Source: Burkholderiaceae bacterium
Lineage (GTDB): Bacteria > Pseudomonadota > Gammaproteobacteria > Burkholderiales > Burkholderiaceae_D
Assembly (NCBI GenBank): GCA_019752915.1
Contig: JAIELO010000324.1
Coordinates: 1 to 20,387 of the forward strand
Length of the DNA stretch: 20,387 bases
Reading direction: 5' to 3'
This document shows, in pieces, positions 1-20,139 of the stretch (its first letter is position 1; each line of letters starts with the position of its first letter). Position numbers and translations under genes: made by a program. Below the pieces are notes generated by a model. That model saw only the letters and a program-made list of their open reading frames with translations, had not been told where the DNA came from and ran no database searches.

Positions 1-875
1 ACGTTATCGCCATCGTTGTAGCAATCGGCGTCGCCGTATTCCAGCGCCCAGCGGGGCAGCATGCGCGCCCGGCCAGTCAATTCGGTGTAACGCGCTAGCA
101 CGTCGCGCACGTTTTTACCGACAAAGTAATAGGCATCGAAACGCGCTTCATCATGGGCCAGCGTGATCTGCTCGTTCTGACGCAAATCATAGCTACCGTC
201 GGACCAGGTGTTGCGCAGCATGCCCCAGCCGCGCGAACTCATTAAGAACGGCGCAGGGCTGGGACGATCGCCCTCCTCCCAGCCGCCGGAGTAGGATACC
301 TGTAATTGCTTACCCTTGAATTCGTAGCGACCGTTCTGCTGGCCGCCGCCGAAGAAGCGCTCGGCCTTGTCACTGGTCAGGGTCTGCACGCTCTGTTTCT
401 CGCCCAGTTCCAGTGGCTGCACTTCGCGCCAGAGCGGCTGCACGTCACCGGCGCGGAACAGCGTGAAACGCAGCGGTTTGCGGTCGATGCGCAAACTTAG
501 AGCTGCCGTGCGGATCAGAATATGATCGGTCTGTTCGCTGACGCTGTACTCGACCTGTGCGGCAGCTTGCGCGACGACGATGGGCGCGGCCTGATCACCG
601 GCGCCCGTCAGTCCGGTTTTCTTCGGGCCGGCCCAGATATGCAGTACATCGGCACGTGGCAGGCTGACGGCGATGGTGGCACCGGTATCGGTCTGCAAGC
701 GCCACTGTGCTGGTGCGCTGCGCGCAGCATCGCCCGCGTTACCGGCCTCGACCTGCATAGAGCGCAGGTTGCCGATCGGTGCTGCCAGTAATGGTGCGCT
801 GGCAGTCAGCGATAGTAACAGTGCAGCATAAGACGCGGCGTGCGGAACTCGGTGCGGCGCAACGGAAAAAAGCAT
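1..875 (-). CDS. Secreted GH31-family glycosidase, N-terminal part; probable alpha-N-acetylgalactosaminidase type (truncated by window edge)
   Basis: Reading the minus strand gives 291 continuous residues with no stop before the window edge, so the gene is partial at its C-terminus. The N-terminus is a hydrophobic signal peptide ending near residue 32 (LLSLTASAPLLAA then P), implying export. The rest matches the N-terminal beta-sandwich domain of GH31: GGGQQNG at about 176-182, an SSRGWG turn at 213-218, DAYYFVG at 247-253, YTELTGR at 263-269, then GDADCYND at 281-288 entering the TIM barrel. The GGGQQNG and GDADCY signatures resemble, from memory, the GH31 alpha-N-acetylgalactosaminidase group rather than alpha-glucosidases. 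The catalytic aspartates lie beyond the edge, so activity cannot be confirmed. The start at 875 is preferred because AAGAG sits about 9 nt upstream; an in-frame ATG at 884 overlaps that ribosome site. It is divergent from the aga cluster, which suits a GalNAc-releasing enzyme. GH31 membership is fairly sure; the substrate is inferred. Confidence 0.8.
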   Translation of the reverse strand, partial: MLFSVAPHRVPHAASYAALLLSLTASAPLLAAPIGNLRSMQVEAGNAGDAARSAPAQWRLQTDTGATIAVSLPRADVLHIWAGPKKTGLTGAGDQAAPIVVAQAAAQVEYSVSEQTDHILIRTAALSLRIDRKPLRFTLFRAGDVQPLWREVQPLELGEKQSVQTLTSDKAERFFGGGQQNGRYEFKGKQLQVSYSGGWEEGDRPSPAPFLMSSRGWGMLRNTWSDGSYDLRQNEQITLAHDEARFDAYYFVGKNVRDVLARYTELTGRARMLPRWALEYGDADCYNDGDN

Positions 876-923
876 GGGTTTCATCTCTTAATAGTTTCGA
901 AAGTACAGTCTTGCGATGCTTCC

Positions 924-952
924 ACTTTAGGAATAAAAATAAATCAGGTCAA
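924..952 (-). promoter_or_regulatory. Candidate sigma70 promoter of the GH31 gene
   Basis: On the minus strand TTGACC (952-947) is followed after 17 bp by TAAAGT (929-924). The hexamers match consensus at 5/6 and 4/6. This would start transcription about 35-40 nt upstream of the GH31 start codon. A TTTCGAAA palindrome at 895-902 lies just downstream of the -10, and further boxes lie upstream. A second TTGACA at 1021-1016 has no good -10 partner. Confidence 0.4.
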
Positions 953-1096
953 TCAAAAGGAAAAATAAACTCTCGAAATTCCACAATAATCTTTCGATTC
1001 GTATCAATGAGCACTTGTCAACTTTCGATTATGTAGCAAAATGACCACATTAATGGAAAACAACATCCCATCGTTACTTTCGTTTTACTTTCGACT

Positions 1097-1125
1097 TTGA
1101 CAAATCGAAAATTAAACTTTATGCT
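1097..1125 (+). promoter_or_regulatory. Candidate sigma70 promoter of the agaS operon
   Basis: A perfect -35 hexamer TTGACA lies at 1097-1102, followed after 17 bp by TATGCT (4 of 6 matches to consensus) at 1120-1125. The transcript would start near 1132, about 23 nt before the agaS ATG. CTTTCG-type boxes sit just upstream of the -35 (1088), inside the spacer (1105, reverse) and across the -10 (1124). Bound repressor would therefore occlude RNA polymerase. Confidence 0.7.
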
Positions 1126-1154
1126 TTCGCTTACCCAACCAGGAAAATCTTTCG

Positions 1155-2291
1155 ATGACCAATTTATTCCAGCGTACTCCCGAAGCCTGGCGCGACCTCG
1201 GTGGCCTTGATACCGCCGAAGAAATCGCCCAGCAGCCAGCCCTCTGGCGCATCCTTGCCCAGCAACTTGATCGCCAGCGCGCCGCACTGGCCGATTTTCT
1301 GGGCGATGTACTGAGCACCCCTGAAGCCCGCATCATCCTGACCGGTGCCGGTAGCTCCGCGTTTGCCGGTGAAATCATCGCCGACGAAATCAACGCTGCC
1401 TGGCCATGTCAGGTGCGCGCGATTGCGACCACTAGCCTGCTGACCCACCCGGCCCTGTATCTGCGGCGCGAGCGCCCGACGCTGGTGGTGTCGTTTGCGC
1501 GTAGTGGCAACAGCCCGGAAAGTACCGCTGCCGTGCAACTGGTGCGCGACATGGTGCCGCACGCTCGCTTCCTGAACATCACCTGCAATGCCGAGGGTGC
1601 ACTGGCCCGTCAGGGCGAGAACGATCCGTCCACCTATAACCTGCTGATGCCGGCGGGTAGTTGCGACCGCGCCTTCGCCATGACCAGCAGTTTTACCTGC
1701 ATGCTGCTGGCGGCCCTGTCGGTGCTCGATCCGGACTTCCAGACGCCGCAACTGGAAACGCTGGCACAACTGGGCGAGCGCGCCCTGAGCGCATGGTCGG
1801 CGCCGGCGGCCGAACTGGCGGCGCAGCGCGTCAGGCGGGTGGTGTATCTGGGCAGCGGTCCACTGGAATCGCTGGCCAAGGAAGCGGCGCTGAAAATTCT
1901 CGAACTGACCGCTGGCGAGGTACTGGCCGTGGCCAACAGTGCACTGGGCTTCCGGCACGGCCCGAAAGCGATGCTGAATAGCGAAACGCTGGTGCTGATG
2001 TTCCGCAGCGCCGATCCGCTGGCGCGCCAGTACGAGCATGACCTGCTGTCCGAACTGCAGCGCGATCAGGTGGCGGCACGCTGCCTGACTATCGGCACCG
2101 GCGGCGACTTCGGTATCGATGCGCCGACCTGGGCTGATGCATGGCTGGCGCCCCTGTGGCTGCTGATGGCACAGCAATATGCGCTGCACCAGTCGGCACT
2201 GCTGCAACTGCGTCCGGATAATCCGTTTGCCAGTGGCACCGTCAACCGCGTGGTACAGGGCGTTACCATCTACCGCCATGATGCCTTCTAA
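1155..2291 (+). CDS. agaS: AgaS, galactosamine-6-phosphate deaminase/isomerase (double SIS domain)
   Basis: This cytosolic 378-residue enzyme is expected to convert D-galactosamine-6-phosphate to tagatose-6-phosphate plus ammonia. Two SIS sugar-isomerase domains are visible. The first carries TGAGSSAFAGE at 63-73 and SFARSGNSPES at 113-123. The second has LGSGPLESLAKEAALK from about 232 and GFRHGPKAM at 265-273. The C-terminal ASGTVNRVVQGV is nearly the same as that of E. coli AgaS, as remembered, and the length is typical. AGGA at 1141-1144 is the ribosome site, 10 nt before the ATG, and a CTTTCG box fills the space between them. It is the first gene of the plus-strand operon and overlaps the next gene by about 11 nt. 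AgaS, rather than AgaI, is the established deaminase of this pathway. The GlmS isomerase-like and FrlB families share SIS domains, but motif agreement favours AgaS. Confidence 0.92.
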   Translation: MTNLFQRTPEAWRDLGGLDTAEEIAQQPALWRILAQQLDRQRAALADFLGDVLSTPEARIILTGAGSSAFAGEIIADEINAAWPCQVRAIATTSLLTHPALYLRRERPTLVVSFARSGNSPESTAAVQLVRDMVPHARFLNITCNAEGALARQGENDPSTYNLLMPAGSCDRAFAMTSSFTCMLLAALSVLDPDFQTPQLETLAQLGERALSAWSAPAAELAAQRVRRVVYLGSGPLESLAKEAALKILELTAGEVLAVANSALGFRHGPKAMLNSETLVLMFRSADPLARQYEHDLLSELQRDQVAARCLTIGTGGDFGIDAPTWADAWLAPLWLLMAQQYALHQSALLQLRPDNPFASGTVNRVVQGVTIYRHDAF

Positions 2292-3219
2292 TATGCGCGG
2301 CTACCACGGCATCGATATCGGCGGCACCAAGATCGAACTGGTGGCGTTTCGCGATGACGCACATGGCCTGCACGAAGTACACCGCGAACGCATCCCTACT
2401 CCGGGAACCGACTTCGCCGAATTCGTGCAAGCGATGGGGCAACTGGTGAAGCGCGCCGATATCGCTCTGGATATGTGCGCTGCGGTCGGCATCGGCTTGC
2501 CCGGCATCGTCGACACCAGCACTGGCCGGCAGCTCAGCTCCAACGTGCCGGCCCTGAATGGTCGCGTGGTAGCAGCCGCCCTGCAGGAGGCCTTGCAGCG
2601 CCCGCTGGTAATCGGCAACGACTGCCAGTGCTTCGCGCTGTCGGAAGCCGACGGTGGTGCGGCCGATGCACTTCCGAGTATGTTCGGCGCCATCCTCGGC
2701 ACCGGTGCGGGCGGTGGCTATTGCTTCAACGGCCGCCTGCTGCGCGGCGCCAACGGCATCGCCGGTGAATGGGGACACTGGCCACTGCCAGCTGCCCTGC
2801 TGCAGCAATACCAGCTGCCGGTAATTCCCTGTGCCTGCGGTCGCAGCGGCTGTCTGGAGCGCTATGTTTCCGGCCCCGGCATGAGCCAGTTGCACCGTCA
2901 TCTCGGCGGTGATGGTGCTGCACCGATGGCCATCGTCGCGCAGGCAGCAGCCGGTACTGCACTGGCACAGCAAACCCTGGCACTGCACCTCGATCTGCTG
3001 GCCCATGCGCTGGCGACACTGGTGATCACGCTCGACCCGCACGCCATCGTGCTCGGTGGCGGTCTGTCACAGATGCAGCACCTGTACCAGCAATTGCCCG
3101 CTGCCATCAGGCGTCACCTGTTTAACGGCGTACGTGTGCCGCCCATTCTGCCGCCGGCTCACGGTGATGCCGGTGGTGCCCGCGGCGCTGCCCTGCTGGC
3201 ACGCCAGCTCTATCCCTAA
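2281..3219 (+). CDS. agaK: ROK-family amino-sugar kinase, probable N-acetylgalactosamine kinase AgaK
   Basis: This 312-residue ROK kinase probably phosphorylates GalNAc (or GlcNAc) at O6 with ATP in the cytosol. Visible motifs are the phosphate loop DIGGTK at 12-17, the catalytic region NDCQCFALSE at 113-122 with Asp114 as likely general base, GTGAGGGY at 140-147, GEWGH at 162-166 and the zinc site CACGRSGC at 184-191. The Cys residues plus His166 complete the ROK zinc motif. Start choice is uncertain: ATGs at 2278 and 2281 overlap the agaS 3' end, and ATG 2293 would give an N-terminus close to the phosphate loop. None has a strong ribosome site, so translation is probably coupled to agaS. 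A cytosolic kinase next to agaS and agaA and the absence of PTS genes indicate a PTS-independent route, like AgaK of Shewanella. NagK cannot be excluded by motif alone. Confidence 0.85.
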   Translation: MPSNMRGYHGIDIGGTKIELVAFRDDAHGLHEVHRERIPTPGTDFAEFVQAMGQLVKRADIALDMCAAVGIGLPGIVDTSTGRQLSSNVPALNGRVVAAALQEALQRPLVIGNDCQCFALSEADGGAADALPSMFGAILGTGAGGGYCFNGRLLRGANGIAGEWGHWPLPAALLQQYQLPVIPCACGRSGCLERYVSGPGMSQLHRHLGGDGAAPMAIVAQAAAGTALAQQTLALHLDLLAHALATLVITLDPHAIVLGGGLSQMQHLYQQLPAAIRRHLFNGVRVPPILPPAHGDAGGARGAALLARQLYP

Positions 3220-3236
3220 TCAAGCCCTCACTCGCC

Positions 3237-4538
3237 ATGAACCAACCATTGTCCCCAGTCCAGCACATCATCGCCGCGCATCGCCGTGGCGAAGCAGTCG
3301 GAATTTACAGCGTCTGCTGCAGCCACCCGTCGGTACTGCGCGCCGCCATGCAGGTAGCGCTGCAACATGACACCATCCTGCTGGTTGAAGCGACCTCGAA
3401 TCAGGTCGACCAGTTCGGCGGCTACACCGGCATGACGCCGCCCGCCTTCCGCGACTATGTCCAGCAACTAGCGCTACAGCAAAACTTTCCACTGGGACGA
3501 CTGGTACTGGGCGGCGACCATCTGGGCCCGAACGCCTGGCAACAACTGGACGCTGCCACGGCCATGGACCATGCAGCCACCCTGATCGCCGCCTACGCCG
3601 CCGCTGGCTTCCACAAGATCCACCTTGACTGCAGCATGCGCTGCGCCGACGATCCGGCCATTCTCAGCGACGAACTGATTGCCGCCCGCTCGGCCCAGCT
3701 GTGTGCCATCGCCGAAGCGGCTGCTGCTGCCGCTGGTATGCCTGCACCGGTGTATGTGATCGGAACCGAAGTGCCGATTCCGGGCGGCGAAGCCAATCTG
3801 GCGCAAGCCGGTGCCGTCACCGCACCGAGCGCCGCAGCGCGCACACTGGACGTGCACCGTCAGGCCTTCTATGCCAGCGAACTGCATAGCGCATGGCGCC
3901 GCGTGATTGCCATGGTGGTGCAACCGGGCGTGGACTTCGATCATAGCCAGATCCAGCACTACAACAGCAGCGATGCGCACCGCCTGTCGAACTTTATTGC
4001 CGGTCAGCCGGGACTGGTGTTCGAGGCCCACTCGACCGACTATCAGCGCGAGAGCGCCTTGCACAGTATGGTGCGCGACCATTTCGCCATTCTCAAGGTC
4101 GGCCCCGCCGCCACCTTCGCCCTGCGCGCGGCGCTGCAGGCACTGTGCGCCATCGAAGACGAGTTGCTGCCGGCCGAGCAGCGTTCGCAACTGATGCAGG
4201 TGCTCGATGACGCCATGCTGGCGCGCCCTGCCCAGTGGCTGAAACACTATCCGGGCAGCGCCCGCGCCCAACGTCTGCTGCGCCGTTACGGCCTCAGTGA
4301 CCGCTGCCGCTACTACTGGGGCGAGGCCAGCGTGCAGGCGGCGGTGGCGCAGTTGCAGGCCAATCTGGACGGTCTCACCATCCCACTGGCGCTACTCGGC
4401 CAGTTCCTGCCGCAGCAGTACGACGCAGTCCGCGATGGCCAGCTGGCGGCCAGCTTCAATGCCCTGCTGGAACACCACATCGCACTGGCACTGGCGCCCT
4501 ATGCACGCGCCTGCAACCATAACCGCGCAATCTGTTAA
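3237..4538 (+). CDS. agaZ: AgaZ/GatZ/KbaZ-family tagatose-1,6-bisphosphate aldolase subunit
   Basis: This 433-residue protein matches the length of the GatZ/KbaZ family (about 420-430). Family signatures seen are GIYSVCCSHPSVLRAA at 22-37, EATSNQVDQFGGYTGM at 51-66, GGDHLGPNAW at 92-101, HLDCSMRC at 129-136 and IGTEVPIPGG at 175-184. Further on are VQPGVDFDH and HFAILKVGPA. In enteric bacteria this subunit is required for full activity of the class II aldolase with GatY/KbaY, splitting tagatose-1,6-bisphosphate into DHAP and glyceraldehyde-3-phosphate. Some pathway reconstructions instead assign AgaZ the tagatose-6-phosphate kinase step. No GatY/KbaY homologue or separate sugar-phosphate kinase lies in this window. 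The gene starts 17 nt after agaK with no clear ribosome site, and agaR follows after 34 nt. Family membership is sure; the precise biochemical step is open. Confidence 0.9.
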   Translation: MNQPLSPVQHIIAAHRRGEAVGIYSVCCSHPSVLRAAMQVALQHDTILLVEATSNQVDQFGGYTGMTPPAFRDYVQQLALQQNFPLGRLVLGGDHLGPNAWQQLDAATAMDHAATLIAAYAAAGFHKIHLDCSMRCADDPAILSDELIAARSAQLCAIAEAAAAAAGMPAPVYVIGTEVPIPGGEANLAQAGAVTAPSAAARTLDVHRQAFYASELHSAWRRVIAMVVQPGVDFDHSQIQHYNSSDAHRLSNFIAGQPGLVFEAHSTDYQRESALHSMVRDHFAILKVGPAATFALRAALQALCAIEDELLPAEQRSQLMQVLDDAMLARPAQWLKHYPGSARAQRLLRRYGLSDRCRYYWGEASVQAAVAQLQANLDGLTIPLALLGQFLPQQYDAVRDGQLAASFNALLEHHIALALAPYARACNHNRAIC

Positions 4539-4572
4539 GCTCGACGTTTTTTTGCCCACCGGACGTTCTATC

Positions 4573-5340
4573 ATGCGACATACCAGCCAACGCCGCGCCG
4601 CCATTCTGCAAGCCCTGACCGAGCACGGCTCGGTACAGGTGACGCAACTGGTGGAGCAAATGGGCGTCTCTGCGGTCACCATCCGCAGCGATCTCACTGC
4701 CCTCGAATCACAGGGTCTGGCGCGCCGCAGCCATGGTGGTGCGCGCCTGAGCCGCACGCCACCACCGGAACAGACCATCCCGCAAAAGGATGCGCTCAAC
4801 CATGCGCAGAAAGAGCGCATCGGCGCCTGCGCGGCGGGGCTGGTGCAACCCGGCGATAACATCATCATCGATTCCGGTACCACTACCATTTCGCTGGCGC
4901 GCCATCTGCACGACGCGGAAAACGTCACCGTGCTTACCAATGGCCTGAACATTGCGTGGGAACTGGCGCAAGCGCCCGGTGTCGATCTGATTCTGACGGG
5001 TGGCCTGCTGCGCAAGCAGTCGCTATCGGTACAGGGCAGTCAGGCCGAAGCCTGTCTGCAGGCCTACAGCTTCGATAAACTGTTCCTCGGCGTGGATGGC
5101 TTCGACCTGCAATTTGGCGTCACCACCCACCACGAGGCCGAAGCGAGCCTGAATCACAAGATGGTGGAACGGGCCAAGAAAATCATCGTCCTGACGGATG
5201 CCTCCAAATTCGGCCGGGTCAGCCTGCACCGCATCGTGCAGCTCGATCAGGTCCACACTGTTATCACCGACGCCAGCATCAGCGACGAATATCGCGATGG
5301 TTTGCTGGCCGCCGGTATCGAACTTCTGATTGCGGACTAA
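4573..5340 (+). CDS. agaR: AgaR, DeoR-family repressor of the GalNAc cluster
   Basis: This 255-residue DeoR-type regulator has an N-terminal winged HTH (about 5-58) with QLVEQMGVSAVTIRSDLTAL as the recognition segment. Its C-terminal sugar-phosphate sensor shows DSGTTT at 100-105, VLTNGLNIA at 120-128, LTGGLLRK at 141-148, FLGVDGFDLQFGVTT at 171-185 and the terminal TDASKFGR at 208-215. The FLGVDGFDLQFG stretch closely resembles E. coli AgaR. The start at 4573 gives the canonical N-terminus; an in-frame upstream extension into agaZ (from 4297) is not domain-like. It lies inside the operon, so it probably represses its own synthesis through the CTTTCG array at 898-1154, with release by an amino-sugar phosphate. 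No box is seen directly upstream of this gene. Confidence 0.9.
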   Translation: MRHTSQRRAAILQALTEHGSVQVTQLVEQMGVSAVTIRSDLTALESQGLARRSHGGARLSRTPPPEQTIPQKDALNHAQKERIGACAAGLVQPGDNIIIDSGTTTISLARHLHDAENVTVLTNGLNIAWELAQAPGVDLILTGGLLRKQSLSVQGSQAEACLQAYSFDKLFLGVDGFDLQFGVTTHHEAEASLNHKMVERAKKIIVLTDASKFGRVSLHRIVQLDQVHTVITDASISDEYRDGLLAAGIELLIAD

Positions 5341-5344
5341 GCAC

Positions 5345-6460
5345 GTGTATTCCGGTAAAGTAAGCGGTAAAATTCTCACCCCTCAAGGATGGCTGCATGG
5401 CAGCATCCGTTTCGACCAGCGCATCACGGCGCTGGAAGCCGACCAGAGCGCCGCAGCGGCAAGCGGTCTGACCATTGTGCCCGGCTTCATCGATCTGCAC
5501 GTGCACGGCGCGGCCGGTGTCGACATCATGCAGGGCGGCGACGCCGGCGTGACGGTAGCACGCGCCCATGCCCGCCACGGCACCACGGCCATGCTGGGCA
5601 CCACCATGACCGCCACCGACAATTCCATCCGGCGCGCCCTGAACGGTCTGGCACCATCGATCGCTCAGCGCCCGGCCGGCGCGGCGCGCATGCTGGGTGT
5701 GCATCTGGAAGGGCCGTTCCTGAGCATCCACCGGCTCGGTGCCCAGCCTGCCGATGCGGTGGTCGATGGGAGTCTCGCACTGGTACAAAGCTATCATGCC
5801 ATTGCGCCGATTCGCGCCATGACGCTGGCCACCGAAGTGGCGCAGCACCTGCAACTGATTCCGCAGTTGCGCGATCTGGGCATCCGCGTCCAGCTCGGCC
5901 ATAGCAACGGCAGTTATGACGATGGCGTCGCTGCACTGCAAGCTGGTGCGGCCGGCTTCACGCACCTGTTCAATGGCATGACGGCCTTGCAGCATCGCCA
6001 GCCCGGCATCGTCGGCGCAGCGCTGGCGCATGCCGAATATGCCGAAATCATTCCCGATCTGCAGCACGTACACGAAGGCGCGATCCGCGCCGCACTGCGC
6101 GCCATACCGCGCCTGTACGGCGTGACCGATGCCACCGCCGCCACCGGCATGCCCGATGGCGAATATGGTCTGGGTAGCCAGCGCGTCTATAAGTGTATGG
6201 GCTGCGTGCGGCTGGCCACCGGCTCGCTGGCCGGTTCGGTACTGACCATGGATCAGGCACTGCGCAATTTTGTCGGCCTCGGTCTGGAACTGGCCGATGC
6301 CTCGCACCGTCTATCGCTCTACCCGGCCGACTATCTGGGCGAAACCGAGCGTGGCCGCCTGCAAGCGGGCGCCTGGGCCGATCTGGTAGTGCTCAACGCC
6401 GAGTTACAACCAGTCGCCGTGTACGTCGAGGGCGAAGCCATTCCCCTCGGCGCCCACTGA
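5345..6460 (+). CDS. agaA: N-acetylgalactosamine/N-acetylglucosamine-6-phosphate deacetylase (AgaA/NagA)
   Basis: This 371-residue amidohydrolase removes acetate from an N-acetylamino-sugar-6-phosphate, giving the AgaS substrate. Metal and catalytic positions of the NagA family are visible: HVH at 52-54 after GFIDL, HLEGPF with Glu122, GHS with His186, THLFNGM with His207, and the catalytic Asp in VTDATAATG (Asp262). The ending ADLVVLNAELQ is typical of the family. GTG at 5345, four nt after the agaR stop, is the preferred start because it gives VYSGKVSGKILTPQGW, a usual length for the N-terminus. A TTG at 5330 overlapping agaR is also possible. Neither has a clear ribosome site, so coupling to agaR is likely. 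The context suggests GalNAc-6-phosphate as substrate, but NagA activity on GlcNAc-6-phosphate cannot be excluded. Confidence 0.9.
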   Translation: MYSGKVSGKILTPQGWLHGSIRFDQRITALEADQSAAAASGLTIVPGFIDLHVHGAAGVDIMQGGDAGVTVARAHARHGTTAMLGTTMTATDNSIRRALNGLAPSIAQRPAGAARMLGVHLEGPFLSIHRLGAQPADAVVDGSLALVQSYHAIAPIRAMTLATEVAQHLQLIPQLRDLGIRVQLGHSNGSYDDGVAALQAGAAGFTHLFNGMTALQHRQPGIVGAALAHAEYAEIIPDLQHVHEGAIRAALRAIPRLYGVTDATAATGMPDGEYGLGSQRVYKCMGCVRLATGSLAGSVLTMDQALRNFVGLGLELADASHRLSLYPADYLGETERGRLQAGAWADLVVLNAELQPVAVYVEGEAIPLGAH

Positions 6461-6549: not shown

Positions 6550-8403
6550 ATGTCCGTCACCGAGCCTGCAGCACAATCGTCCGCCAACCTGAAGCCCGAC
6601 TCCGGCGCAGAAGCCCGCGCCACCGGGCGCGCCATGCGCTATCTACTATTCATCGCCGGGATGGGCGGGCTGCTGTACGGGATCGATGTGGGCATCATTG
6701 CCGGTGCACTGCCCTATCTGGAGGCGACCGCCTCGGTGGCGTGGCACCTGAGTGCCCAGCAGCTCAGCTTCATCGTCGCAGCAGTACTGCTCGGCTCCGT
6801 GCTGTCGTCGCTGTTCGCTGGCGCACTGGCCGATCTGATCGGGCGGCGCTGGGCCATGGTACTGGCCGGTGTCCTGTTCACCGCGAGCATTCCCCTGATT
6901 GCATTGGCCGATGGCTATCTGCCACTGCTGCTGGGGCGTCTGCTGCAAGGCATTAGCGGTGGTCTGATCGGCGTGGTGGTGCCGCTGTATCTGGCCGAGT
7001 GTCTGCATGCGCGCCAGCGTGGCCGTGGTGCCGCGCTGTTCCAGCTGCTGCTGACCATCGGTCTGGTGGCCGCCGCGCTGATCGGTCTGTATCAGGCCCA
7101 CAGCGTGGATGCGGCCAGCACGGCCGCCCAGTTGCTGGCGCCTGCGGCCCGTGCCGAAGCCCTGTTTGCCGCGCGTGATCACGCCTGGCGCAGCATCTTC
7201 TGGGTGTGCCTGACACCGGGCATTATCTTCACCGTCGGCAGCTTACTGCTGGCCGAGTCGCCGCGCTGGCTGGCCCGCAAAGGCAAACTGGCGCAAGCGC
7301 GTCAGGCGCTGCTGCGCACCCGCCCCGCGGCCGAAGCAGAAGCCGAACTGCGCGACATCGAACAGGCGCTGGCACCGCAGGGCAGCCATACCGGCCAGGC
7401 CGCGCAGTATAGCGAACCGCTGCTGAGCCGTCGCTATGTCCTGCCATTCCTGCTGGCCTGTCTGGTGCTGGCGCTGACCCAGGCCACCGGTATCAACTCC
7501 ATCCTCGCCTATGTGGTGACGATCCTCAATCAGGCCGGCCTGCCCGGCACCACGGCCAACATGGCCGACGTGGTCCTCAAAGTGCTGAATGCCGTGATGA
7601 CCATCGTTGCGGTGGTGCTGGTAGACCGCAAGGGCCGCAAATTCCTGCTGATGCTCGGTACCGGCGGCATCGCGCTGGCACTGCTGTCGGCCGGTCTGCT
7701 GTTCCGCAGCGCGGAAGCCAATCAGCGCGACGTCAGTGCCGTGCTGCAGACGCGCATACAGGGCGATAGTCTGTCGATCCAGCTCGATCGCGCCACCCTG
7801 CAGGCACTGGGCGTTGCCAGCGACGCTGGCGGCGCACCGCAGCAACTGGCGCTGGCCTATTCCTACGGCCCGTTCAGCAACGTCAAAAACCTGCGCAGCG
7901 ATGATCCAGCCCTGCCGGTGCTGGAACTGAGCCGCGCCGACACGGTGCAGGCCGACAGCGTCATCGGCACCTTCTTCCGCCGCCTGCATCTGAATCCGTT
8001 TGCCGATCCGGCACAGGGCGCCACGGCGCCGCTGCGCATCGATCGCGCCCAGATTTCGGCACTGCCATCGAGCCAGCATGGCTGGCAGGTCGCGCTGGCC
8101 ATGTGCCTGTTTGTGGCCAGCTTTGCCGTCGGTCCCGGCGTGTGTGTCTGGCTGGCGCTGTCGGAGCTGATGCCGAACCGCATACGCTCGAACGGCATGA
8201 GCGTCGCACTGCTGATTAACCAGTTTGTATCGACGTCGATCGCAGCGGTGTTCCTGCCAACTGTCGGCCAGTATGGCTATGCCACGCTGTTCTTCTATGG
8301 CGCGGGCTGCTCGCTGCTGTACTTCCTCACCGCCGCCCTGCTGCTGCCGGAAACCCGCGGTAAAACGCTGGAAGAAATCGAAGCGTATTTCGCCCGCAAG
8401 TAG
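6550..8403 (+). CDS. MFS sugar-porter family transporter with a large periplasmic insertion; candidate GalNAc permease
   Basis: This 617-residue inner-membrane transporter is much longer than the usual 450-500 of the sugar porter family. Family motifs are seen: ADLIGRR at 94-100 (loop 2-3), PLYLAE at 145-150, AESPRWLARKGK at 235-246, QATGINSILAY at 311-321, DRKGRK at 359-364 and PETRGKTLEEIE at 600-611. The extra length is mainly a hydrophilic block of about 120 residues at 388-511, between the predicted TM9 and TM10, which should face the periplasm. A smaller expansion lies near 183-212 between TM5 and TM6. GGAG at 6541-6544 is a good ribosome site 5 nt before the ATG. Being last in the aga operon, it probably imports free GalNAc (or related sugars) by proton symport. 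The substrate is inferred from context only; characterised GalNAc permeases of other groups may be unrelated. Confidence 0.85.
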   Translation: MSVTEPAAQSSANLKPDSGAEARATGRAMRYLLFIAGMGGLLYGIDVGIIAGALPYLEATASVAWHLSAQQLSFIVAAVLLGSVLSSLFAGALADLIGRRWAMVLAGVLFTASIPLIALADGYLPLLLGRLLQGISGGLIGVVVPLYLAECLHARQRGRGAALFQLLLTIGLVAAALIGLYQAHSVDAASTAAQLLAPAARAEALFAARDHAWRSIFWVCLTPGIIFTVGSLLLAESPRWLARKGKLAQARQALLRTRPAAEAEAELRDIEQALAPQGSHTGQAAQYSEPLLSRRYVLPFLLACLVLALTQATGINSILAYVVTILNQAGLPGTTANMADVVLKVLNAVMTIVAVVLVDRKGRKFLLMLGTGGIALALLSAGLLFRSAEANQRDVSAVLQTRIQGDSLSIQLDRATLQALGVASDAGGAPQQLALAYSYGPFSNVKNLRSDDPALPVLELSRADTVQADSVIGTFFRRLHLNPFADPAQGATAPLRIDRAQISALPSSQHGWQVALAMCLFVASFAVGPGVCVWLALSELMPNRIRSNGMSVALLINQFVSTSIAAVFLPTVGQYGYATLFFYGAGCSLLYFLTAALLLPETRGKTLEEIEAYFARK

Positions 8404-8433
8404 ACCTGTCACGCACACTTGGCCAGCCAGCGT

Positions 8434-8452
8434 GGCGCCCCCCAGGGGCGCC
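8434..8452. terminator. GC-rich hairpin at a convergent gene junction (possible bidirectional terminator)
   Basis: GGCGCCCC at 8434-8441 pairs perfectly with GGGGCGCC at 8445-8452 across a 3-nt loop. It lies between the MFS stop (8403) and the stop of the minus-strand GST gene (8492). There is no U-tract on either side, so strong intrinsic termination is doubtful. Confidence 0.4.
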
Positions 8453-8491
8453 CGTTCGTGGCGCTACGCAGCAGCACGAAGCAGCGGCGCG

Positions 8492-9154
8492 TTACAGAAA
8501 GCGCTCGGGAATGTCGTCGTAAAACGGGTAGAGCTGGAAGTACGGTTTCGCTTCTTCCAGCACCCGCTGCACCGACGGACGTGCTATCAGACGCTCGAAG
8601 TAGCCACTCAAGGCGTCGTACTCTTCCGGGAACGGCAGCACCGTGGCGGCATAAAACAGCGCTGGCGCAGCAGCGCAATCGGCCAGCGAAAATTCCGCCC
8701 CGTTCATCCACTCGCGACTCGCCATGCGCTGCTCGATCATCTTGTAGGCGGTCTTGAGTTTGGTGCGATCGCTGGTCAGATCACACTGGATGTCATTCAG
8801 GCGCGCCAGCACGATGGCCTGCATCGGCTCCTGCACGTAATGGTCGAAAAAGCGGTCCCACAGCCGCACCTCGAGCGCCACTTCCGGATCGGCCGGCAAC
8901 AGATCCTGCCCACCCGGATAGTGCTGGTCCAGATATTCGATGATGATGCTGGTTTCCGGCACATCGCGCGCACGCGCATGGTCGCGCAGCACAGGAAAGC
9001 GGCACAGCGGCCAGATCGCTTCGAGTTCGGCGCGGTCGGCCGGTTCAGCCAGATTGATGATACGACGCTCGAAGGCCGTATTATTTTCATACAGCGCAAT
9101 CAGTACCTTGTGGCAGAATGAAGCGAGCGGGTGATAGTAAAGCGTCAGGGACAT
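8492..9154 (-). CDS. Glutathione S-transferase family protein
   Basis: This 220-residue soluble protein has the two-domain GST layout. An N-terminal thioredoxin-like domain (about 1-83) carries LYYHPLASFCHK with Ser12/Cys14 at the usual active-site position, the cis-proline loop FPVLRD at 53-58 and the glutathione-binding ETSIIIEYLD at 67-76. The helical C-terminal domain (about 90-215) includes FSLADCAAAPALFY, the N-capping box region. It probably conjugates glutathione to electrophiles or acts as a related thiol transferase; no substrate can be named. GGAG lies 6 nt upstream of the ATG. It is a single-gene unit, convergent with the MFS gene and divergent from the OmpV-type gene, with no functional tie to either visible. 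Confidence 0.9.
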   Translation of the reverse strand: MSLTLYYHPLASFCHKVLIALYENNTAFERRIINLAEPADRAELEAIWPLCRFPVLRDHARARDVPETSIIIEYLDQHYPGGQDLLPADPEVALEVRLWDRFFDHYVQEPMQAIVLARLNDIQCDLTSDRTKLKTAYKMIEQRMASREWMNGAEFSLADCAAAPALFYAATVLPFPEEYDALSGYFERLIARPSVQRVLEEAKPYFQLYPFYDDIPERFL

Positions 9155-9192
9155 GGGTAGCTCCGTGGATCAGGCACCATGCAACGGTACCA

Positions 9193-9214
9193 AAGTATGC
9201 GGCAGATGATACTT
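9193..9214. promoter_or_regulatory. Inverted repeat between the GST and MipA/OmpV genes
   Basis: AAGTAT (9193-9198) and ATACTT (9209-9214) form a perfect 6-bp inverted repeat with a 10-bp spacer, in the 182-bp divergent gap between two genes. The centre-to-centre distance of 16 bp could suit a dimeric regulator, but the arms are short and chance is possible. No convincing -35/-10 pair was found in this gap. Confidence 0.25.
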
Positions 9215-9336
9215 CAGACTGGGCGCTGGTGGCATCTGATAAATCCGGCAATACTGCGCCTGGTCCAACGCCGGGCTATTCCAGCAAAGCGCCGGCGGGC
9301 CAAAGTCCGACCTCTTTCCCCCTTCAAGGAAGCTCT

Positions 9337-10143
9337 ATGAAATTAGCCGCCATCACCCTTGCCTGCCTGTGCGCCGTCTGCGCCAGTAGCCACGCCGATC
9401 CGCTCAATGCCGAACCCAGCGCCACAGTCGCATCCGGCTCGCCACTCGACTACACGCTGGTGGGCGCGGGGCTGGGCTATGTGCCGGAATATGCCGGCAG
9501 TGACAAGGGCCGGGTGCTTCCCTTGCCCGTTTTCGAGCGTAGCTTCAGCAACGGTGCCTTTATCAGCTCCCTGCGCGGCATCGGCATCGCGCACACGCTG
9601 GCCGACGTGAATGTCAGTGCGGCGCTCAGCTATGGTGGTACGCGGATCGACCATAAGCGCAACATCTTCTCCGGGTCGGATCAGCTGCGCGGCATGGGTG
9701 ACATCGACGGTGCTGTACAGGCGGTGCTGAATGCCAGCTACCGCTTTGACGCCATCGGGGTCAGTCTCGGCACCACCCAGAATCTGAACCGGCGCGAACA
9801 TGGCGCCACCTACACGCTCGGCAGCAGCCTGCAACTGCATGCCAGTCCGACCGACCAGCTCAGCCTCGGCCTGTCGGCCGACTACGGCGATCGCAAATAC
9901 GTGCAGACCTATTTCGGCGTGACGCCGGAACAGAGTCAGCGTTCCGGCTACCGCCGTTACAGCGCCAAAGCCGGTTTCACCAATCTCGGCGCAACGCTGA
10001 CCTGGAACCATGTGATCGATAGCCACTGGTCGGTGCTTGGCGTAGCGGGCGTGAAACACCTGACTGGCGACGCGGCCGATAGTCCGCTGACCAAGCGCAG
10101 CACCTCGCCGATGCTGCTGACTAGCCTGATCTACAAATTCTAG
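9337..10143 (+). CDS. MipA/OmpV family outer-membrane protein
   Basis: This 268-residue protein has a signal peptide ending SSHA at residue 20, then a sequence dominated by alternating beta-strands and a final aromatic residue in LIYKF, the typical C-terminal insertion signal for outer-membrane barrels. The early segment YTLVGAGLGYVPEYAGSD matches the MipA/OmpV start, where a GGG.GY.P.Y.GS pattern is typical; YGGTRIDH and YGDRKYVQTYFGVTP are further family-like parts. MipA is known as an MltA-interacting scaffold in E. coli, while other OmpV-like members are porin-like or antibiotic-responsive. No specific role can be assigned here. AAGGAAG at 9326-9332 is the ribosome site. The reading frame extends upstream to 9118, overlapping the GST gene, but ATG 9337 is the only start with a signal peptide. 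Confidence 0.9.
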   Translation: MKLAAITLACLCAVCASSHADPLNAEPSATVASGSPLDYTLVGAGLGYVPEYAGSDKGRVLPLPVFERSFSNGAFISSLRGIGIAHTLADVNVSAALSYGGTRIDHKRNIFSGSDQLRGMGDIDGAVQAVLNASYRFDAIGVSLGTTQNLNRREHGATYTLGSSLQLHASPTDQLSLGLSADYGDRKYVQTYFGVTPEQSQRSGYRRYSAKAGFTNLGATLTWNHVIDSHWSVLGVAGVKHLTGDAADSPLTKRSTSPMLLTSLIYKF

Positions 10144-17810: not shown

Positions 17811-17906
17811 TCTGCAAAGAATTCTGAAATTTCTTCCTGACGCGCGCTCAGCGAGCGTTTCCCCTATGAGAAACAGGCAAAACTATGCAGCCAAGCAAGT
17901 GTATTT

Positions 17907-17943
17907 TGTCATACTCGGCGTTTTATGACAGGCATTTATGACA
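17907..17943. promoter_or_regulatory. Additional PhoB half-sites in the pstS-ppk divergent region
   Basis: TGTCATA appears on the plus strand at 17907-17913 and on the minus strand at 17943-17937 and 17930-17924. The minus pair is 13 bp apart rather than the canonical 11, so it may be a weaker or auxiliary box. The rest of the 17741-18042 gap shows only a small CGCTC/GAGCG hairpin at 17845-17857 and no gene. Confidence 0.5.
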
Positions 17944-17948
17944 TGCTC

Positions 17949-17981
17949 TGTCACGTACTTGTCATATTTGCTCTTTACACT
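17949..17981 (+). promoter_or_regulatory. Pho box and promoter of ppk1-sixA
   Basis: On the plus strand TGTCACG (17949-17955) and TGTCATA (17960-17966) form an 11-bp-period Pho box. TACACT at 17976-17981 (4 of 6 to the -10 consensus) starts 16 nt after the second repeat, the same geometry as the divergent pstS promoter. The ppk start codon is about 60 nt downstream. Confidence 0.75.
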
Positions 17982-18042
17982 GTTACATCACTCGCAGCCT
18001 AAAGGCGCTAGAATGATATTATTGCAAAGTGAATAAAAAGAC

Positions 18043-20139
18043 ATGAAGCCTGACCTGCCCGCCGACCTGCAAAAAAACTCCGCGTTTCTGGACCGGGAAC
18101 TGTCGCAACTGATGTTCAACCGGCGCGTTCTGGCACAAGCGGAGGATAAAACCATTCCGTTACTGGAACGGTTACGCTACTTATGTATCGCCAGCAGCAA
18201 TCTGGACGAATTCTTCGAAGTGCGGGTGGCCAGCCTGCTGGCCGCAGGTACCATCGACGGCGCCCTGTCCAATCATCCCGCGCTGGTGGCCACACTCAAC
18301 CGCATCAGCAACGAGTGTCACGAGCTGGTGGCACACCAGTATGAAATCCTGAATCAGGAAGTGCTGCCACAACTGGCGCGCGCCGGCGTACATCTGGTGC
18401 GTCACAATGAGCGCAACGACGCCCAGCGCGCCTGGGTCAAGGAATACTTCGATAACGAAGTGCGTCCGCTACTGACCCCGATCGGGCTCGATCCGGCCCA
18501 CCCCTTCCCGCAGGTGGTCAATAAAAGTCTCAATTTCATTGTTTCCCTGTCCGGCAAGGATGCCTTCGGGCGCGGTACCGCGATTGCCATCGTCAAAGCG
18601 CCACGGGTGCTGCCACGCGTAATCCGCCTGCCCGACCACCTGTCCGACAATGGCGGCGTGTCGTTCTGCCTGCTCTCCTCCGTCATCCACGCGCACATTT
18701 CCGACCTGTTTGCCGGGCGCGAAGTGCAAGCCTATTCGCAGTTCCGGGTGACCCGCGACAGCGATCTGTGGGTCGATGAAGATGAAGTGAAGAACCTGCG
18801 GCAGGCGCTCAAGGGCGAATTGCAGGGCCGCCAGTTCGGCACCTCGGTACGTCTGGAAGTGGCGATGAACTGCCCGCCCGAACTGTCGCAGTTCCTGCTC
18901 AACCAGTTTGGCCTGGACCAGAGTCGCCTGTATGCCGTGAATGGCCCCGTGAATCTGGTGCGCCTGACCGAAATGATCGACCATCTCGACAAACCGGCCT
19001 TGCGCTTCCTGCCCTTCTTCCCTAGCGTGGCGCGCAAGTCCGCCAATCTCGACATCTTCGCCGAATTGCGCCAGCACGATATTCTGCTACATCACCCGTT
19101 CCAGACCTTCCAGACCGTCATCGACTTTATCCGCAGTGCCGCGCTCGATCCGGCAGTGGTCGCCATCAAACAGACCATTTACCGCACCGGCATGAATTCG
19201 GACCTGATGGAATCGCTGATTCTGGCGGCCCGGCACGGCAAGGAAGTCACCGTCATTGTCGAACTCAAAGCGCGCTTCGATGAAGAAGCCAATATCAACT
19301 GGGCCGACAAGCTGGAACAGGCCGGTGCGCAGGTGGTGTACGGCGTGGTGGGCCTGAAAACCCACGCCAAGGTCGCGCTGGTAATCCGCCGCGAAGGCCA
19401 GAAACTGCGCTACTACGCTCACCTCGGCACCGGCAACTACCACGCCAGCACCACCAAGTTCTATACGGACTTCGGCCTGCTGACCAGCCACGACGGCATT
19501 GCCCGCGAAGTCAACGAAGTCTTCATCCACCTGACCAGCCTGACCAAACCGCACCGGCTGACGCATCTGTGGCTGGCGCCGTTCGCCCTGCAGAACGAAA
19601 TCATCAAAGCCATCCGCAACGAAGCGCGTATTGCGCGCGCCGGACGTCCGGCACGGATTATTGTGAAGATCAATGCGCTGGTGGACGAATCGGTGATCCG
19701 CGCTCTGTATGCCGCGTCCAAGGATGGCGTGAAAATCGACCTGATTGTGCGTGGTGCCTGCACCCTCAAGCCCGGCGTGCCGGGTCTGTCGGAAAACATC
19801 CGGGTGCGCTCGATCATCGGCCGCTTCCTCGAGCACAGCCGGATTTATTATTTCCGTAACGATCTGGCGCACGACATCCTGCTGGCCAGTGCCGACTGGA
19901 TGAGCCGCAATCTGTTCCGTCGCATCGAAGTTGCCTTCCCCGTGCTGGACAAGGCGCTGAAACGCCGGGTACTGGCGGAAGGCTTGAATCCTTACCTGAA
20001 GGACAACACCAACGCCTGGGAACTGGAACCGGATGGCCACTATCAGCGGCGCAAACCGCGCGCCAAGCAGGCCAGCTTCAGCGCCCAGCAACATCTGATG
20101 GAAACGCTGGGCATGCCGAATTCCCAACTGGGAGAGTGA
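18043..20139 (+). CDS. ppk1: Polyphosphate kinase 1
   Basis: This 698-residue enzyme reversibly polymerises the gamma-phosphate of ATP into polyphosphate. All four PPK1 domains appear: the N-terminal helical domain with SSNLDEFFEVR at 51-61, the head domain, and two phospholipase D-like C-terminal domains. The autophosphorylated histidine is His441 in LKTHAK and the second catalytic histidine is His598 in FLEHSRIYYF; both sit six residues later than His435 and His592 of the E. coli enzyme. LGTGNYHASTTKFYTDFGLL and SADWMSRN are further signatures. The ribosome site is weak. It is divergent from pstS with a Pho box of its own and followed after 1 nt by sixA. Confidence 0.97.
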   Translation: MKPDLPADLQKNSAFLDRELSQLMFNRRVLAQAEDKTIPLLERLRYLCIASSNLDEFFEVRVASLLAAGTIDGALSNHPALVATLNRISNECHELVAHQYEILNQEVLPQLARAGVHLVRHNERNDAQRAWVKEYFDNEVRPLLTPIGLDPAHPFPQVVNKSLNFIVSLSGKDAFGRGTAIAIVKAPRVLPRVIRLPDHLSDNGGVSFCLLSSVIHAHISDLFAGREVQAYSQFRVTRDSDLWVDEDEVKNLRQALKGELQGRQFGTSVRLEVAMNCPPELSQFLLNQFGLDQSRLYAVNGPVNLVRLTEMIDHLDKPALRFLPFFPSVARKSANLDIFAELRQHDILLHHPFQTFQTVIDFIRSAALDPAVVAIKQTIYRTGMNSDLMESLILAARHGKEVTVIVELKARFDEEANINWADKLEQAGAQVVYGVVGLKTHAKVALVIRREGQKLRYYAHLGTGNYHASTTKFYTDFGLLTSHDGIAREVNEVFIHLTSLTKPHRLTHLWLAPFALQNEIIKAIRNEARIARAGRPARIIVKINALVDESVIRALYAASKDGVKIDLIVRGACTLKPGVPGLSENIRVRSIIGRFLEHSRIYYFRNDLAHDILLASADWMSRNLFRRIEVAFPVLDKALKRRVLAEGLNPYLKDNTNAWELEPDGHYQRRKPRAKQASFSAQQHLMETLGMPNSQLGE

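Follow-up and report, generated by a model that had tools for sequence, protein, structure and literature searches.

The window analysed here, bases 1–20387 of contig C3 from the Burkholderiaceae bin G000 (20,387 bp), begins within a gene for a family GH31 glycoside hydrolase that is divergent from a group of N-acetylgalactosamine (GalNAc) catabolic genes: agaS, a ROK-family kinase gene, agaZ, agaR and agaA. We read this arrangement as a locus under AgaR control that serves to scavenge alpha-linked GalNAc, a reading to which we give a probability of roughly 0.83. Gene content and order, their conservation among relatives, the family placement of the GH31 enzyme, its conserved catalytic motifs and a cluster of CTTTCG boxes carry this reading; the activities of the proteins, the cellular site of hydrolysis, binding by AgaR and the reaction of AgaZ are predicted from sequence. 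Profile matches placed the GH31 gene and the divergent agaS–ROK–agaZ–agaR–agaA series where the initial annotation of the window had read them.

The GH31 gene groups with an alpha-N-acetylgalactosaminidase

The window holds the 5' part of the GH31 gene (3–884, minus strand; 294 aa), which is cut by the contig start at base 1 of C3. Its product has an N-terminal Gal_mutarotas_2 domain (PF13802, 4e-12) and contains the GGGQQNG and GDADCYND motifs that had been reported in it; matches to GGG.QNG and to GDADCYN are present in all 62 relatives longer than 900 aa obtained with a simple gene caller, which called GH31 in 65 of the 80 loci described below. The rest of the gene was found on contig C191 of the same bin (L084), apart from some 75 codons that are absent between the two contigs; C191 starts inside the GH31 barrel and runs for 759 codons to a stop (L084:1–2280). 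Against the full-length protein of L004 (1127 aa), from an Oxalobacteraceae metagenome-assembled genome, the window fragment aligns with residues 1–293 (86.3% identity overall, 94.1% from residue 110) and the C191 part with residues 369–1127 (96.2% identity). When laid on L004, the window, C191 and contig C180 (L096) lie side by side at 87–90% DNA identity. PF01055, PF21365 and PF17137 score over cut-off in both the C191 part and L004; DUF5110 and F5/8C domains also occur in both and an NPCBM domain in L004; N-terminal, barrel and C-terminal domains of the GH31 family are found across fragment, C191 part and L004. An AlphaFold2 model of L004 from a 10-row alignment had a mean predicted local distance difference test score of 47 and a predicted TM-score of 0.33.

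Among solved structures, the window fragment scored 100 bits to 6m76, 7f7q and 7f7r, which we take to be the Enterococcus faecalis enzyme, and 37.6 bits to the next chain. For full-length L004 the scores were 380 bits to these alpha-N-acetylgalactosaminidase entries versus 167.8 to the next, with 37.6% identity to 6m76 over the 617 residues of the aligned parts; 7f7q and 7f7r are both named GH31 alpha-N-acetylgalactosaminidase. The search distinguishes GH31 types, because another GH31 gene of the bin, on contig C300, goes to the oligosaccharide glucosyltransferase 4b9y (558.9 bits). A FastTree phylogeny was built from 22 loci, the fragment in the window, the part on C191, the C53 paralogue described below, 6m76 and five other GH31s, 31 rows in all. 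It contained a clade of 26 that included 6m76 (support 0.991) and excluded YicI, YihQ, 6jr6, 4b9y and the C300 gene; in the underlying alignment the non-GalNAc GH31s are visibly out of register at the catalytic columns. The placement beside alpha-glucosidases or alpha-xylosidases that the initial annotation had named as the refuting outcome was not seen, the gene standing with an alpha-N-acetylgalactosaminidase and apart from the other types.

The Asp of KTDVAW in 6m76 corresponds to Asp386 of L004 (KLDVAW), a position held by N in 7f7r and by A in 7f7q. K.DVAW is present in 61 of the 62 full relatives, and W[TP]GDQ and PNDGYG.GY in all of them. From the tree, with its one characterised member, we infer that the enzyme is a GH31_18-type alpha-N-acetylgalactosaminidase; a search of NCBIfam profiles matched no GH31_18 or GH109 model. 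All GH31_18 members characterised so far are stated to be active on alpha-GalNAc (PMC13096917, in part). BT3169-GH31 of Bacteroides thetaiotaomicron is described as active on desialylated mucin and inactive on blood-group A or Tn (PMC11992087, in part), and Amuc_1008 of Akkermansia muciniphila as core GalNAc-specific and predicted to be periplasmic (PMC11790493, in part). By analogy with these two enzymes, we would expect the substrate to be GalNAc in the core or linked to peptide, and not blood-group A.

The linkage of GH31 and aga genes is widely conserved

The linkage of GH31 to aga genes, noted at first in this one genome, is conserved far beyond it. A one-per-species genome scan gave 186 relatives, and the loci counted here are the best 80 of these; a gene was scored by a tblastn match of more than 100 bits within the stretch fetched, and several contigs end in or near GH31, the counts being lower bounds. 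On this basis at least 76 of the 80 loci contain agaS, 75 the ROK gene, 74 agaZ, 73 agaR and 72 agaA, while a major facilitator superfamily (MFS) transporter gene and a GH109 gene are each present in 64. A TonB receptor of either of two types was found, by a loose match, in 76 loci (66 with one type and 33 with the other, some having both). The agaS and GH31 genes diverge with no more than 700 bp between them in 68 loci; in eight others the two are 4.2–4.8 kb apart, and a TonB receptor fills the gap in four of these (L010, L011, L016 and L019). The linkage spans Oxalobacteraceae, the Roseateles–Paucibacter–Pelomonas group and the Lysobacter–Stenotrophomonas group. In L071, another of the eight wide-gap loci, the genes between agaS and GH31 (6842–9578) encode a sugar-binding protein plus an ABC ATPase, perhaps replacing the MFS porter.

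The 80 loci are the most similar relatives, and 145 genomes drawn evenly from the family were used as a check. GH31 was found in 13 of them and agaS in 18. All ten genomes with an agaS of at least 68% identity have GH31 at a distance of 270–466 bp, and the eight whose agaS matched at 46–50% identity gave no GH31 match. A sample of 200 genomes from the order, with GH31 in one and agaS in two, was too thin.

AgaR and the divergent control region

The gap between GH31 and agaS (885–1154; 270 bp), rightly taken from the first as a control region common to both, contains seven CTTTCG boxes, at 898 on the minus strand and at 991, 1022, 1077, 1088, 1124 and 1149 on the plus strand. Dinucleotide shuffles of the gap had a mean of 0.29 and a maximum of four, none of 5000 reaching seven, and the window outside the gap has five. 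CTTTC is reportedly the AgaR consensus published by Leyn et al. in 2012. Two Escherichia coli aga promoter regions contain six and seven CTTTC, a number reached by none of 3000 mononucleotide shuffles. In the 68 relatives with a close gap, the stretch from agaS to GH31, which in some loci includes a little GH31 coding sequence, has 2–7 CTTTCG (median 4) and 4–10 CTTTC. Several boxes are invariant in a nine-locus alignment of the gap, in which mean column identity is 55%. Compared with other stretches of equal length, the gap has the highest CTTTC count in 52 of the 68 loci, ties in 14 and is one short in two. The tie in the four Janthinobacterium loci examined is with the gap in front of the second TonB receptor, the one preceding GH109; for L010 and L016 the maximum falls between agaS and the TonB receptor divergent from it, and in L060, L070 and L073 the competing CTTTC-rich stretch has no evident cause.

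The agaR gene (4573–5340, plus strand) encodes a DeoR-family repressor that scores 326 bits to NF040755 (cut-off 260) and is 49.2% identical to E. coli AgaR. The boxes in the gap are probable AgaR sites, and we infer that AgaR binds them; AgaR would then repress transcription in both directions through the CTTTC(G) boxes of the 270-bp region until an inducer is present.

Uptake, GH109 and the site of hydrolysis

Downstream of agaA lies the gene for an MFS sugar porter (6550–8403, plus strand; TIGR00879, 247.9 bits, cut-off 237.8), probably an inner-membrane GalNAc importer. The initial annotation had drawn the cluster from agaS to agaA and left this gene out; the same-strand series runs on through it and ends at 8403. 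Models match the two ends of the 617-aa porter separately, which suggests a large insertion at about residues 390–520. On C191 the GH31 gene is followed by a TonB receptor gene (L084:2431–5406), and C180 carries a TonB receptor end (L096:2–901), a GH109 gene (937–2313) and carAB. With receptor, GH109 and MFS transporter added, the locus is fuller than the initial annotation could show. C191 and C180 carry versions of the receptor's 3' end that differ from each other; closely related strains may be mixed in the bin, or there may be two (tandem) receptors.

The GH109 protein of L044 matches PF21252 (2.2e-85) and, weakly, a twin-arginine signal. Each of the eight genomes searched has a single GH109 gene, and the 14 control genomes have none; in the seven besides G000 the coordinates place it within, or no more than 1 kb from, the fetched aga stretch. 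GH109 enzymes of B. thetaiotaomicron and Akkermansia muciniphila are described, in the parts of the literature available, as acting on blood-group A, and that of B. thetaiotaomicron also on Tn. Adjoining GH109 in L044 is a DUF5077–DUF3472 protein (17890–19182) with matches in 28 of the 80 loci, which may belong to the system.

Export of the GH31 enzyme is likely. Its N-terminus resembles a signal peptide in its hydrophobic stretch and Ala-rich end, and lacks a lipoprotein box, judged by hydropathy and otherwise by eye. The signal peptide first proposed is borne out to this extent; secretion, proposed with it, is no likelier than a periplasmic site, and the periplasm is at least as likely. We propose that the TonB-dependent receptor of C191 would carry GalNAc-bearing glycans or glycopeptides across the outer membrane, that the exported GH31_18 enzyme, with its C-terminal domains resembling carbohydrate-binding modules, and a GH109 enzyme bearing a twin-arginine signal would release GalNAc, most likely in the periplasm, and that the MFS porter would bring it into the cytosol. 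With the same genes, the hydrolases could instead act outside the cell and free GalNAc diffuse in, as the export signal without a lipoprotein box and the binding-module-like domains would allow. We consider this possible but less likely, given the TonB receptor that follows in 76 of the 80 loci (by the loose match) and the periplasmic site predicted for the Akkermansia GH31_18 and modelled for BT3169-GH31 in the accessible parts of those accounts.

The catabolic genes and the proposed route to fructose 6-phosphate

In the cytosol, GalNAc would be phosphorylated to GalNAc 6-phosphate by the ROK-family kinase (2293–3219, plus strand), a probable GalNAc kinase in the role of AgaK. AgaA (5330–6460, plus strand; TTG start, overlapping agaR), an N-acetylhexosamine-6-phosphate deacetylase matching TIGR00221 nagA (236.5 bits, cut-off 225.65), would then deacetylate it. 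AgaS, the predicted galactosamine-6-phosphate deaminase/isomerase (1155–2291, plus strand; 43.8% identical to E. coli AgaS), would convert galactosamine 6-phosphate to tagatose 6-phosphate, and AgaZ (3237–4538, plus strand; TIGR02810, 582.7 bits, cut-off 568.8), a GatZ/KbaZ-family protein and probable tagatose-6-phosphate 4-epimerase, would epimerise this to fructose 6-phosphate.

The last step can be read in another way. AgaZ-type proteins are named tagatose-6-phosphate kinase or aldolase subunit in the available part of PMC4694137 and in PDB entries 2fiq and 3txv, and such a role is proposed in that of PMC12118421; the route would then pass through tagatose 1,6-bisphosphate. In contrast, E. 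coli GatZ and KbaZ support epimerisation of fructose 6-phosphate to tagatose 6-phosphate, and seven active-site residues have been proposed (PMC11907403, in part). These residues (C20, E44, D87, H88, E171, H257 and K279 of GatZ) are all kept in the window AgaZ and in 73 of 73 AgaZ sequences. No tblastn match to the KbaY/GatY aldolase partner was found at 1e-5 in 83 loci, so that AgaZ has no nearby partner for an aldolase complex of that kind. A class II aldolase gene is single and far from the aga genes in six of eight genomes and absent from Stenotrophomonas maltophilia D457 (G004), and G000 has two partial matches with complementary ranges; no genome of the eight thus has more than one complete copy. 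A phosphofructokinase (PFK)-family gene is present in six of the eight and was not found in G000, which is incomplete, or in G007; these searches covered class II aldolases and the PFK family, not class I tagatose-bisphosphate aldolases or PfkB-type kinases. A kinase or aldolase role for AgaZ is therefore unlikely. AgaZ may instead epimerise tagatose 6-phosphate, and the E. coli data together with the kept residues point to a short route: GalNAc to GalNAc 6-phosphate, galactosamine 6-phosphate, tagatose 6-phosphate and fructose 6-phosphate.

Observations that weigh against a GalNAc locus

Several observations weigh against the reading as an AgaR-controlled GalNAc locus. The bin carries the GH31 gene in two pieces on separate contigs. 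Four of the 80 loci have no agaS in the stretch fetched (L027, at a contig edge, L074, L080 and L081), and three of the 13 family genomes with GH31 (60–63% identity) gave no agaS match; the enzyme thus occurs also without the aga pathway. AgaS scores 415.9 bits to TIGR02815, below the cut-off of 529.2, yet this is still its best family, the next being the best glucosamine-6-phosphate deaminase model at 72.1 bits; its product is for this reason best called 'AgaS-like'. The best matches of the ROK kinase are N-acetylglucosamine (GlcNAc) kinases, the closest named protein being one of these. A triple-box pattern was not enriched genome-wide in eight genomes (five matches versus nine for the reversed control); both matches in G000 lie in the present gap and the single one in G007 in its own aga gap, and the pattern marks the region in no other genome. 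The Shewanella AgaR motif is stated to be completely unlike that of E. coli in a 2011 paper (PMC3223726, in part), and one characterised GH31_18 enzyme cleaved p-nitrophenyl-alpha-GalNAc but was inactive on every native substrate offered (PMC13096917, in part).

Two wholly different readings fare far worse. Enzymes of family GH31 differ widely in specificity, and the gene might have drifted to another alpha-glycoside (of glucose, xylose or galactose) and stand beside the aga genes by descent only, as the three family genomes without agaS might suggest; we reject this as very improbable in view of the tree and score gap, the 6m76 motifs (PNDGYG.GY in 62 of 62 and K.DVAW in 61 of 62 relatives), the linkage kept across three groups and the GH109 gene in the same loci. 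Equally improbable, and rejected, is a general GlcNAc operon in which a NagK-like kinase, a NagA-type deacetylase and a SIS-domain deaminase lead directly to fructose 6-phosphate: the kinase and nagA-model matches fit it, but AgaS scores 415.9 against 72.1 bits, agaZ would be left without a job though present in 74 of 80 loci, AgaR exceeds its model cut-off and two alpha-N-acetylgalactosaminidase families stand alongside.

A second module and the surrounding genes

A second module, at 1282–9296 of contig C53 (L085), contains another GH31 gene of the alpha-N-acetylgalactosaminidase type. This gene encodes 1337 aa with a lipoprotein-like start and four F5/8C stretches, comes after a TonB receptor gene and is near an AgaR-type regulator (NF040755, 312.7 bits, cut-off 260), so that both GH31_18 genes of the bin adjoin an AgaR. 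The 507-bp gap upstream has four CTTTC; in the tree the protein pairs with 6m76 with a support of only 0.25. A 170-aa GH31 piece with 63% identity (P0021), on a 511-base contig labelled Mycobacterium tuberculosis, is probably a contaminant.

The source bacterium is kin of Massilia and Duganella, and its bin comprises 2.71 Mb in 448 contigs, estimated at 60.7% complete. The genes that follow in the window, past 8403, are unrelated: one on the opposite strand encodes a glutathione S-transferase, and the others MipA, a relative of CAAX proteases, products of the phosphate regulon (identified by reading the list of open reading frames) and polyphosphate kinase.

Relation to known systems and implications

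The characterised GH31_18 enzymes (6m76/7f7q/7f7r, BT3169 and Amuc_1008) resemble the present one in being by far its best match, in core domain order, in the catalytic Asp and in WTGDQ. Their hosts, in the available parts of the literature, are Bacteroidota, Bacillota, Verrucomicrobiota and the silk moth, not Pseudomonadota; here, unlike there, an aga operon diverges from the gene, whose product has F5/8C and NPCBM domains. The polysaccharide utilization locus BT4240-50 of B. thetaiotaomicron likewise unites GH109, a GalNAc kinase, an MFS transporter and outer-membrane import in one mucin-induced locus (PMC11992087, in part), but its GH31, BT3169, is encoded elsewhere, uptake is of the Sus type, and that part of the paper names no AgaR or AgaS. 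AgaR stands with agaA, agaS and agaZ in the aga regulons of E. coli and Shewanella as well. Shewanella shares the use of a permease and kinase in place of a phosphotransferase system and has an outer-membrane porter (PMC12118421, in part). E. coli shares the CTTTC-rich aga promoters but imports by a phosphotransferase system and has kbaY beside agaS, whereas here there is no aldolase gene and two alpha-N-acetylgalactosaminidases are linked. AgaZ is 48–52% identical to the C4-epimerases GatZ and KbaZ of E. coli and keeps the seven residues, yet stands without a GatY/KbaY partner.

Each part of the locus is of a known kind, GH31_18 and AgaR among them, and we suggest tentatively that the combination is new. 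No published account was found in which a GH31_18 gene of Pseudomonadota stands linked to AgaR and agaS, a weak negative, as the key 2012 paper of Leyn et al. and the 2023 paper on GH31 subfamilies lay outside the search. That the whole forms a complete Pseudomonadota GalNAc regulon, with two unrelated alpha-N-acetylgalactosaminidases (GH31_18 and GH109), a dedicated TonB receptor, an MFS porter and a short AgaZ route free of tagatose-6-phosphate kinase and tagatose-bisphosphate aldolase, all under AgaR boxes, we hold to be slightly favoured over its opposite.

If the reading is right, release, uptake and catabolism of GalNAc would stand under one repressor, in a form open to an easy growth test, and the loci would be a source of new alpha-N-acetylgalactosaminidases, enzymes useful for O-glycan trimming. 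They would also offer a clean genetic case for GatZ/KbaZ proteins as tagatose-6-phosphate epimerases in a natural pathway, as opposed to the kinase or aldolase-subunit label that they have in reviews. Scavenging of alpha-linked GalNAc by GH31_18 enzymes would then not be confined to degraders of gut mucin but extend to proteobacteria that are free-living or inhabit host surfaces, Janthinobacterium and Massilia among them.

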